Assembly (NCBI GenBank): GCA_963575655.1
Contig: CAUYTY010000181.1
Span: forward strand, 1-41,079
Direction of reading: 5' to 3'
Source: Gammaproteobacteria bacterium
GTDB taxonomy: Bacteria; Pseudomonadota; Gammaproteobacteria; CAIRSR01
Length of the DNA stretch: 41,079 bases
Made by a program: the position numbers and the translations under genes
Shown here: positions 3,506 through 40,857 of the stretch, in pieces
Numbering within the stretch: position 1 is the first letter of the stretch
Layout: every line of letters starts with the position of its first letter
The notes under the pieces: model-generated
Databases searched by the model: none
The model's input: only the letters and a program-made list of their open reading frames with translations
What the model was told of the DNA's origin: nothing

Positions 3506-3685
3506 ATGAAAAATGTTGAAATGTCCCTGAAAGAAAATATCCTAACGATTACCGTAGACCTCTCGAAAGAGTTCGGTCCATCGTCTTCCGGGAAAACCAT
3601 CATCATCGCCTCAACTGAGGGAAATAAATCAATCCCAGAGAATGAAGAGATAAAGATCGGACTCAATATTTATAGGAAGAAATGA
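3506..3685 (+). CDS. Small conserved hypothetical protein (59 aa)
   Basis: An open frame of 59 codons starting ATG 3506 and ending TGA 3683-3685, about 105 bp after scpB on the same strand. A GCGGAG-like ribosome site sits about 10 bases before the start. The protein begins MKNVEMSLKENILTITVDL, continues with FGPSSSGKTIIIASTEGN and ends GLNIYRKK. The phrase around SSSGKTIIIAST recurs, from memory, in small uncharacterised proteins of many bacteria. It is not a P-loop ATPase, being far too short. It looks soluble and largely beta-strand. Function unknown. Confidence 0.75.
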   Translation: MKNVEMSLKENILTITVDLSKEFGPSSSGKTIIIASTEGNKSIPENEEIKIGLNIYRKK

Positions 3686-3778
3686 TGTCATGGCTGGCAT
3701 TGTGCTCTAATTAAATGGTAACCGTTCATTCTGCTTCCTGTTGGGATGGGGGTGAACGGCCATTCCATCCGGTACTTA

Positions 3779-3927
3779 GGGCTATCCACTTAACCTGCGA
3801 CACATACCGACGAGGGCAGGCACTTCCTCCAGCCTCGCGGGTGGCTATCTTCTTGAAAACGGGGAGCGAGATACCTACCCCGGTTAGTCGTTGACTTTTA
3901 ATCTGTTGCGGCTTAAGTGGATAGCCC
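3779..3927. mobile_element. MITE-like element with 24-bp terminal inverted repeats
   Basis: Positions 3779-3802 (GGGCTATCCACTTAA core) and 3904-3927 (TTAAGTGGATAGCCC core) are inverted repeats matching at 21 of 24 positions, enclosing about 100 bp without a coding frame. A single related half-site (AGCTATCCACTTA) occurs near 8691. The right end stops just short of the stop codon of the next minus-strand ORF. Confidence 0.6.
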
Positions 3928-25149: not shown

Positions 25150-25260
25150 GGCGCCCTGTGTCAGACAAACTCCGGCACACGCATCCGCCGTTACCGCTGC
25201 TTCCTTCCGGACCTGACGGGGTTCACGGCATATCGTTGCGGAGGCCCGGCACAGGCCGCC
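25150..25260 (-). ncRNA. ffs: Signal recognition particle 4.5S RNA
   Basis: About 111 nt on the minus strand. The conserved apical loop GTCAGGTCCGGAAGGAAGCA is present. The two ends (GGCGGCCTGTG from 25260 and CACAGGGCGCC ending 25150) pair with one mismatch to form the long hairpin. It lies just upstream of dnaX, a frequent position in gammaproteobacteria. Confidence 0.96.
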
Positions 25261-37950: not shown

Positions 37951-38052
37951 AGACCTTATCGGAAACCCCCTACCTAGCTCTGCCGGACAACGCAACCTCA
38001 TGATTTATATTGACTGTGGTGGGTGATGAGGAGGTTTCCGATAAGGTCTATT
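37948..38052. mobile_element. Miniature element with 20-bp terminal inverted repeats, second copy
   Basis: Same element as 4674-4778. Its right repeat joins an IS30 transposase sequence directly. Confidence 0.7.
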
Positions 38053-38449
38053 GCCCATGTGGCTAGCAAAGAGGCCGCTGTTGTGGCGGACACGATGATT
38101 TCCTTACTCAAGCCTTTCGCTGATCATGTTCACACTATCACGACCGACAACGGCAAGGAGTTTTCTCAACATCAACGAATCGCCAAGGAACTGAATGCGG
38201 GGTTCTATTTCGCACACCCATATTCCTCTTGGGAACGTGGCGCCAATGAGAATATGAATGGACTAATCCGCCAGTTCTTTCCAAAGAAGATGAGTCTTAA
38301 ATTCATCCCTGAAAAACTTATCCAGAGGGCAAAGGATTTCCTAAATCACCGGCCACGGAAATGCCTCGGGTTCAAAACTCCTTTTGAAGTGTTCAATAAT
38401 GAGTTACAATCGATTAACCCACCCGTTGCACTTCAAGGTTGAATCCGCC
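38053..38449 (+). pseudogene. IS30-family transposase, C-terminal part
   Basis: Frame open to 38442 with AHVASKEAAVVADTMISLL, then HTITTDNGKEFSQHQ (catalytic Asp), PYSSWERGANENMNGLIRQF with the final Glu, and FLNHRPRKCLGFKTPFEVF. The first two thirds are replaced by the composite. The terminal repeat GCACTTCAAGGTTGAATCCGCC ends at 38449. It is a less decayed relative of the copy at 9795-10835. Confidence 0.9.
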
Positions 38450-38608: not shown

Positions 38609-38622
38609 GCCCAACAAGTCGT
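38609..38622 (+). other. Left part of an integron attC site, interrupted by IS1111
   Basis: GCCCAAC at 38609-38615 fits the attC R'' box (RYYYAAC), followed by AAGTCG of the L'' region. The remainder of the site continues on the far side of the IS at 40112. Confidence 0.65.
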
Positions 38623-38637
38623 ATATGGACTCCTCCC

Positions 38638-38955
38638 GTATTGCAAGAGACTGAGCACAGATTTTTGGCAAGTAAGGATCGGTTGCAGTCGTATATCCGG
38701 CCTAAGGGTGGAACTAATATTACCCTTGGACTTCATGGAATCCGCCTACCGGGTGCCTATCGCTCAAATCGGCCTGTATGGCCAGTCTTGTTACCGGCGT
38801 GTCCCGATATCGGTCCGACCTGTTGCCATGATCGTGATAGTCTCTCTCGCAAACCTTGGGATTACAGTCTTTTATAGGGGCCACGCGGAAGGACGGACAG
38901 GGAGTCCGTCCTGGAGAGTGGCCGTCCTTGGTGATTAGTGAAGCAAAAGGGACAA
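38638..38955 (-). ncRNA. Candidate bridge-RNA region of the IS1111 element
   Basis: Non-coding stretch between the transposase stop and the element end. In IS1111-group elements the bridge RNA, which pairs with donor and target DNA, is encoded on this side. A hairpin AGGACGGA/TCCGTCCT lies at 38890-38912. The exact RNA ends cannot be set by eye. Confidence 0.5.
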
Positions 38956-40023
38956 CTAAGCTCCTGTAGCAGGAGTTGCTGCGAAATTGCCGTCGAAGGA
39001 ACGCCGATGGCGTACGACGGAGAAGGCAATACGCGCGAGTTTATTGGCCAAAGCGCAAACGGCCTTATTCGCGCCGCGTTTCTCGGCCAGGGAGATGACC
39101 CAGCGCTGGAGACGGGTCAAGGGCTTTCGTCCGAGAGAGGCTTGACGCTGAGCGGCGTAGAGGACGGCACGAGCGCCGTGGGTGAGCAGCATCCGCAAAT
39201 AGGGGTCGCCCCGTTTGCTGACGGAACCGAGACGGCGGCGCTGACCGCTGCTGGATTCGCGCGGAGTAAGGCCGAGCCATGCGGCGAGATGACGGCCGTT
39301 ACGGAACTGGGTAAAATCGCCGACAGCGGCGACCAGTGCGGTGGCGATGAGGAGGCCGATGCCGGGAATGGTCAGCAGTTGCTGGACGGTAGGCATGGTT
39401 TTGTCCTGAGTCTGGAGTTGGGTTTCCAGGGTATCGATCCGGTTTTCAAGGTCGCGGATCTCTTCGATGATCGCGACCAAGGACGAACGCAGGGCTGGCG
39501 GCACGGGATTGTCGGTCTCGGCGAGGATTTCCCGTACCCGTTGCACGGCGACGTTGGGGCCTTGGGGCAAAACGATGCCGAACTCTCGCAAGAGACCACG
39601 CAACGCATTGATGCGGGCGGTGCGGGTACCCATCCAGCCGCTACGGACCCGATGCAGTCCCTGGAGCGCCTGTTGTTCCTCGGACTTGACCGGGACCGGC
39701 AGGATTTGGTCGTTGCGGTCAGCTTCGAGTAAGGCCGCAGCATCGGCGCGATCGGTTTTGTTGCGACGCACATAGGGCCGCACATACTGAGGCGGTAGGA
39801 GTTTCACGGTGTGGCCTTGGCGCTGGAAGGTGCGTGCCCAGTAGTGGGCCGAGCCGCAAGCTTCCATGACGATCCGGCAAGGCGGACGGTTGGCGAAAAA
39901 CTGGGCAAAGGCTTCCCGCGACAAACGCTTGCGCTCAATGATGCGCCCCTGATCATTAGCGATGGCCAGCTCGAAAACGGTCTTGGCCAGGTCAACGGCG
40001 ACGGTAGTGGTGGTAGCGTTCAT
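38956..40023 (-). CDS. IS1111-group (IS110 family) transposase
   Basis: 355-residue DEDD recombinase. The RuvC-like N-terminal part has the first Asp in TVAVDLAKTVFELA, the Glu in RIVMEACGSAHYWAR and the pair DRADAAALLEAD. The C-terminal Tnp_20 part has LLTIPGIGLLIATALVAAVG and LAAWLGLTPRESSSGQ with the serine region. Start ATG 40023 has AGGAG 8 bases before it; the frame is open further upstream. No break is seen, so it may be active, guided by the adjacent RNA. Confidence 0.94.
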   Translation of the reverse strand: MNATTTTVAVDLAKTVFELAIANDQGRIIERKRLSREAFAQFFANRPPCRIVMEACGSAHYWARTFQRQGHTVKLLPPQYVRPYVRRNKTDRADAAALLEADRNDQILPVPVKSEEQQALQGLHRVRSGWMGTRTARINALRGLLREFGIVLPQGPNVAVQRVREILAETDNPVPPALRSSLVAIIEEIRDLENRIDTLETQLQTQDKTMPTVQQLLTIPGIGLLIATALVAAVGDFTQFRNGRHLAAWLGLTPRESSSGQRRRLGSVSKRGDPYLRMLLTHGARAVLYAAQRQASLGRKPLTRLQRWVISLAEKRGANKAVCALANKLARIAFSVVRHRRSFDGNFAATPATGA

Positions 40024-40111
40024 GTTTCGGACTCCTCTCATTCGTTGAATGGAAGCGGTATTCCTCCATTCTGGCACTTTCGATGCCGTGTAGAGTGGGA
40101 GGAGTCCATAT

Positions 40112-40196
40112 CATCACTCAACCGGACGCGCGCTCTAGGGCTGGTTCTGAAAGGTTTGAGGTTGTAACGCGCGCGCCGGTTAGCTTGTCGTTAGAC
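40112..40196 (+). other. Right part of the interrupted attC site
   Basis: CAACCGGACGCGCGC (from 40119) pairs with GCGCGCGCCGGTTAG ending near 40182, with one bulge, forming the attC stem. AGCTTGTC and the R' box GTTAGAC at 40190-40196 follow. Together with 38609-38622 this rebuilds a complete attC of about 95 bp. Confidence 0.75.
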
Positions 40197-40275: not shown

Positions 40276-40545
40276 ATGCCTTCAATATCAGCGTTCTATG
40301 GGATCATAATTTACATGTATTTCATGGATAACAAACAACATAAACTCCCTCATATTCATGTCACATACTCTGGAGATGAAGTCATAATATCAATTCCAGA
40401 TGGAAATGTTATTGAAGGAATTATACCTTCTTCGAAACTAAAATTAGTTCAAGCATGGACAGAAATACATAAAGAAGAGCTTATGGCTAACTGGGAGTTG
40501 GCAGTATCAGGTGAACAACCTTACAGAATAGATCCATTGAGATAA
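40276..40545 (+). CDS. DUF4160-family protein (integron cassette gene)
   Basis: 89 residues. The opening MPSISAFYGIIIYMYFMDNK, the HKLPHIHVTYSG segment with its two His residues, and the ending W-LAVSGEQPYRIDPL match the DUF4160 pattern as I know it. AGAGGAA precedes ATG 40276. It is followed after 3 bp by a DUF2442 gene. This pair is common in gene cassettes and genomic islands and is often listed as toxin-antitoxin-like, but its biochemistry is not established. It lies 80 bp after an attC R' box, as the first gene of a cassette would. Confidence 0.85.
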   Translation: MPSISAFYGIIIYMYFMDNKQHKLPHIHVTYSGDEVIISIPDGNVIEGIIPSSKLKLVQAWTEIHKEELMANWELAVSGEQPYRIDPLR

Positions 40546-40548
40546 GAA

Positions 40549-40857
40549 ATGAATCCAAGAGTAAAACAGGTGTCAGTTTTAAGTGATTACAAATTGTTCC
40601 TTGTGTTTACCAATGGCGAGCAAGGTACTTATGATTGCTCTAATTTGCTCCAGTTTGGCATATTTAAAGAATTTAGAAACATGGCTTATTTCAAGCAGGT
40701 TAAAGTAATTGATGGAACTGTTGCGTGGCCACATGAACAAGATATTTGTCCTGATACGCTTTATTTGGATTCAATAAAAGAAAAATCCAACATATGCTCC
40801 AGTCAACCGTTCGCGGTGGCTGAGGCGTTGCGCAATCGGTCAGTTCGGAGCGGTTAG
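40549..40857 (+). CDS. DUF2442-family protein (integron cassette gene)
   Basis: 102 residues. The family core is clear: MNPRVKQVSVLSDYKLFLVF, then NGEQGTYDCSNLL and VKVIDGTVAWPHEQDICPDT leading to LYLDS. The last 24 residues are read from attC-like DNA and are not part of the family. The start lies 3 bp after the DUF4160 stop, so the two are co-translated. Usually a partner of DUF4160 proteins; function unproven. Confidence 0.86.
   Translation: MNPRVKQVSVLSDYKLFLVFTNGEQGTYDCSNLLQFGIFKEFRNMAYFKQVKVIDGTVAWPHEQDICPDTLYLDSIKEKSNICSSQPFAVAEALRNRSVRSG

Follow-up and report, generated by a model that had tools for sequence, protein, structure and literature searches.

We show here that an intact insertion sequence (IS) of the IS1111 kind splits an integron attC site within the window (the whole stretch of 41,079 nucleotides that was analysed), and that candidate guide segments downstream of its transposase gene (tnp) match this very site. 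In our view, RNA-guided targeting of attC by an IS1111-attC element with its own seekRNA (bridge RNA) is a highly probable explanation of the whole arrangement. The mechanism has been known since 2024 and is not a new kind of system: Siddiquee et al. (2024) demonstrated the seekRNAs of ISKpn4 and ISPst6 together with their attC matches, attC matching was extended to ISPa25 by prediction, and ISEc11 was reprogrammed (PMC11187229), while Durrant et al. (2024) predicted that 93% of IS1111 elements have a bridge RNA, located in the right end (PMC11208160). Hence, given the published attC matches of ISKpn4 and ISPst6, the present element is a further case of a known mechanism, and the preliminary description, which had called the reason for attC targeting open, was outdated on this point (PMC11187229). 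The new points are this particular element, the agreement of its guide letters with the attC of the host and, as a side observation, a predicted masking of the transposase ribosome-binding site by the left repeat.

The insertion sequence and the attC site that it splits

The element and its surroundings comprise the following features:

38609..38621, plus strand: R'' box GCCCAAC (38609-38615) and AAGTCG spacer, the 5' part of the split attC
38622..40116, minus strand (tnp on the minus strand): IS1111-group insertion sequence, 1,495 bp
38623..38637, strand not applicable: right subterminal inverted repeat (tnp orientation)
38956..40023, minus strand: DEDD transposase, 355 aa, intact (PF01548 and PF02371)
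40097..40111, strand not applicable: left subterminal inverted repeat (tnp orientation)
40117..40196, plus strand: remainder of the split attC, from L'' to R' (R' GTTAGAC at 40190-40196)
40276..40857, plus strand: next cassette-like segment, with DUF4160 and DUF2442 ORFs

The transposase scores well above cut-off for both IS110-family Pfam domains (DEDD_Tnp_IS110 and Transposase_20), and its DEDD residues, read by eye from the translation, are D11, E54, D91 and D94. The subterminal repeats, ATATGGACTCCTCCC and GGGAGGAGTCCATAT, are 15 bp long and 100% complementary, within the range of 7-17 bp that defines IS1111 elements. Together with the downstream guide-RNA region, these features place the element, as judged from its sequence, in the IS1111 group of the IS110 family, where it is one more example of the IS1111-attC kind; the subterminal repeats and the intact transposase had already been recognised in the preliminary description. 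In the transposase orientation, the joints read GGTTGAG^TGATGATATGGACTCC and GGAGTCCATATA^CGACTTGTTGGGC (the caret marks the joint or insertion point). The IS ends reach 7 and 3 bp beyond the repeat core, likewise in ISPa25, ISPa62 and ISKpn4, and alignment of the window flanks with intact attC revealed no target duplication at the joints.

The IS lies between the R'' and L'' boxes, and rejoining the flanks without it rebuilds a 93-nt attC (GCCCAACAAGTCGCTCAACCGG...CCGGTTAGCTTGTCGTTAGAC), as had been proposed at the outset. The rejoined site possesses R''/R' and L''/L' boxes, its bottom strand forms a hairpin that has an extrahelical base, and eight intact attC sites, drawn from this genome and from a congener, can be aligned with it from end to end. 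One full-length integron integrase is present in the host genome (contig C234, 456 bits vs. a cut-off of 265), and three of the eight aligned sites share its contig. A second IS end breaks another attC of this genome at the identical position, on contig C203, which terminates inside its IS copy. Position and orientation within attC are the same in the window copy, in this second copy and in the copy of the congener G001; the identical position is also used by ISPa25, ISKpn4, ISPa62 and relatives, so that the position is not a matter of chance. Since the element separates R'' from L'', the attC should be disabled until precise excision; how such insertions affect integrons has been described as a matter of limited experimental evidence (PMC11616780).

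Directly 5' of the split attC, a fragment (38023-38442) exhibits a weak, below-cut-off match to integrase-core (rve) transposases. Upstream, the contig carries genes that look by eye like obgE, rpmA and rplU.

A predicted guide RNA and its match to attC

The non-coding region 3' of tnp can be aligned with those of ISPa25, ISKpn4, ISPa62 and others, and contains the following predicted features:

38676..38834, minus strand: predicted seekRNA/bridge RNA core (covariance model R1, fold, covariation)
38787..38793, minus strand: target guide A, UAACAAG, pairing with CTTGTTG/A of attC
38760..38767, minus strand: target guide B, UUGAGCGA, which matches the target strand at 8/8 positions spanning the insertion point
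38735..38740, minus strand: UUCCAU, putative left donor guide within the second loop (by eye; it pairs imperfectly with the left end)
38688..38696, minus strand: AUAUACGAC, putative right donor guide with the same sequence as the right end of the IS plus flank (ATATA^CGAC)

The window RNA is predicted to fold into an outer stem, an inner loop (left arm GGUAACAAGAC, right arm UUUGAGCGAUA) and then a second loop (GGAUUCCAUGAAG, CGGAUAUACGAC), with both target guides on opposite arms of one loop. Its folding energy is unexceptional (z -0.5 to -1.0), hence the case for the RNA rests on covariation. Across 12 elements, 93% of the cells are paired and two-sided changes occur in 13 of the 22 pairs; pairing falls to 28-38% when the partners are slid, and none of 500 shuffles matched any of the observed covariation measures (the structure being derived from the same alignment). 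Covariance model R1 scores the window RNA, itself among the 12 model sequences, at 136 bits (E 2.6e-37). A search of the window against Rfam at gathering thresholds yielded no IS1111 RNA and returned only a bacterial small SRP RNA (25156-25251, minus strand). Fold and covariation thus support a downstream region that folds like an IS1111 bridge/seekRNA.

Guides A and B together span 15 contiguous bases across the insertion point and pair with the 15-bp target TTGAG^CGACTTGTTG (also written TTGAGCGACTTGTTG; sites of this type are TTGAGCGACTTGTT-like) by 14 Watson-Crick pairs and one G-U. The G-U falls in the pairing of guide A with CTTGTTG, and guide B equals TTGAG^CGA exactly. The probability of such a match by chance is 0.0003 for guide B (8/8) and 0.03 for guide A (8/9, offsets allowed), so that the match of guide A, taken singly, could be fortuitous. 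Nowhere in the 4.2-Mb host genome is there an intact exact copy of the guide-derived 15-mer TTGAGCGACTTGTTR, and its only two one-mismatch copies both lie within attC sites on the integrase contig; copies with up to three mismatches (218) are about as frequent as those of the reversed control (232). Both occupied host attC sites read TTGAG, and occupancy amounts to two of three TTGAG sites vs. none of five others, which is suggestive of a preference among the host's own sites, two occupied sites being too few to show it (Fisher about 0.11, calculated by hand, not significant).

We postulate that the downstream region makes a seekRNA, within one internal loop of which guide A would pair with one target strand and guide B with the other, the two jointly reading the R''-spacer-L'' arm of the host's attC sites. 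A transposase-RNA complex would then join the ends of an excised circle to the target, in a fixed orientation and with no target duplication.

Guides and targets across relatives

ISPa25 (IS1111-attC group), the closest plasmid match with 55% protein identity, agrees with the window element in attC insertion point, orientation and RNA scaffold, but its home is a resistance integron on a plasmid, and its guides are UAACAAU and UUGAACGA instead of UAACAAG and UUGAGCGA. ISKpn4 and ISPst6, whose seekRNAs were detected experimentally, share the attC position, the homologous places of both target guides and a non-coding region downstream of tnp (PMC11187229), whereas their guides suit class 1 attC (TTGAACGAATTGTTA), and protein identity is 48% for ISKpn4. 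The IS621/IS110 bridge RNA system (PMC11208160) likewise combines a DEDD recombinase with a two-loop RNA that carries target and donor guides; in IS110 elements, unlike here, the RNA lies upstream of tnp and the repeats measure only 2-3 bp.

The window RNA is homologous to those of ISPa25 and ISKpn4, and within the paired core its guide A departs from theirs at a single letter; the guide match could hence be mere shared ancestry, uninformative on the targeting of this element. We consider this the least probable of the readings discussed here, as the differing letters coincide with the differences between attC types: class 1 attC reads TTGAA^CGAATTGTTA vs. TTGAG^CGACTTGTTG in the host, the ISKpn4-type guides UAACAAU and UUGAACG fit the former, and the changes in the window element (U to G in guide A, A to G in guide B) correspond to those that distinguish the latter. 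Moreover, guides follow targets across 26 elements. For this comparison, 369 genomes of the class were scanned with the covariance model built from 12 elements, and 70 of them contained related RNAs; 80 regions were retrieved, 86 matches were aligned, and ends and guides were read by rule. The test set comprised 26 non-redundant elements with both ends, ISPa21 (L016) being omitted for a left end that looks rearranged. The mean Watson-Crick run with the element's own target was 6.3 for guide A and 5.5 for guide B, whereas with the targets of other elements the runs averaged 3.0 and 3.1 (z 13.6 and 10.9), and none of 20,000 permutations exceeded means of 4.3 and 4.2. In an early test over a wide RNA stretch, chance matches limited the significance to p 0.007-0.03, a problem resolved by fixing guide positions via RNA homology and then via the covariance model; the offset of guide A in the RNA-homology test was widened post hoc, hence the 26-element covariance-model test is the reliable one. 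A search of viral contigs found no relative.

It would also be conceivable that, in the manner of IntI, the transposase recognises attC as a folded single-stranded hairpin, the RNA match being secondary. AttC sites do fold as hairpins, and ISPa11, also of the IS1111 group, targets potentially folded REP sequences (PMC11187229). Against this, four relatives with the same RNA scaffold (L009, Skermanella L020, G365 and G127) reside in sites unlike attC that their guides match; since several elements target such sites, we argue that the site is chosen by the RNA rather than by the hairpin of attC, and we hold recognition of the hairpin to be quite improbable. The RNA-guided reading is thus preferred. 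The preliminary description had raised the possibility that the flank encodes a bridge RNA with an attC-matching target loop; fold, covariation, guide match and the 26-element comparison all lend support to this suggestion, in that the predicted loops match the flanks and the flanks form an attC.

Two close relatives share the ends and RNA scaffold of the window element. The IS of the congener G001 (L024, 78% protein identity) also shares its attC position, but with slightly changed guide letters (CAACAAG and GCGAGCGA). It carries between tnp and seekRNA (about 1270-1430) an extra inverted-repeat segment, AGGAGTTACGCAGTTG...CAACTGCGTAACTCCT, possibly a small MITE. In this congener (G001:C30; L205, 501-699, minus strand), a remnant of another related element with a shortened second loop adjoins two copies of CGATTTGTTAA. 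The IS of Candidatus Contendobacter odensis (L008, 71% protein identity) occupies a non-canonical site: its RNA (3619-3780) has attC-type guides (TAAC..., TGCAGCGA), yet the site is the repeat-like GTGTAG^GGCGGGTTAGGC, to which guide B is poorly suited, its run of 3 being no longer than those with the targets of other elements. This insertion may be off-target.

Transposase leader, circle junction and implications

Two further features of the IS may bear on the expression of the transposase:

40029..40039, minus strand: third repeat copy GAGAGGAGTCC, inverted, overlapping the tnp ribosome-binding site
38641..38646, minus strand: TTGCAA, predicted -35 of a circle-junction promoter

In the predicted fold of the window tnp leader, the third copy pairs with the left repeat (-38.1 kcal/mol, z -5.4), and 28 of the 32 related elements are expected to have at least five pairs between the two at this place. 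When repeats were swapped among the 32 elements, 23 on average and at most 27 still did so, which makes for a weak control because the repeats are alike across elements; the third copy varies in step with its own repeat as compared with others' repeats (permutation p 0.00015). The left repeat is thus predicted to mask the transposase ribosome-binding site in these 28 elements and, as a cis-acting hairpin arm, would leave read-through mRNA poorly translated, so that the third copy possibly provides fold-back control of transposase translation. A limited literature search, a thin basis for novelty, found no report of such masking in the IS1111 group. On circularisation, the joined ends (38641-38646 and 40113-40116) would give the predicted promoter TTGCAA-17-TATGAT, with a 17-bp spacer, and a junction promoter of this type would form in most related elements; such promoters are already known for ISEc11 (PMC11187229).

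We regard as about evenly balanced the twofold proposal that attC guide letters adapt locally in sedentary chromosomal integrons and that a left-repeat hairpin covers the ribosome-binding site family-wide; the former draws on a comparison of few attC-targeting elements, and the latter on structure prediction with support from covariation. RNA-guided attC targeting has so far been studied in elements from resistance integrons; our findings extend it to a chromosomal integron whose bacterial host is probably environmental and in which guide letters are seen to follow the host attC sequence, and the 26-element set lets guide and target be read off directly. Possibly, such insertions lock cassettes in place, which bears on the question of why some integron arrays stay static.
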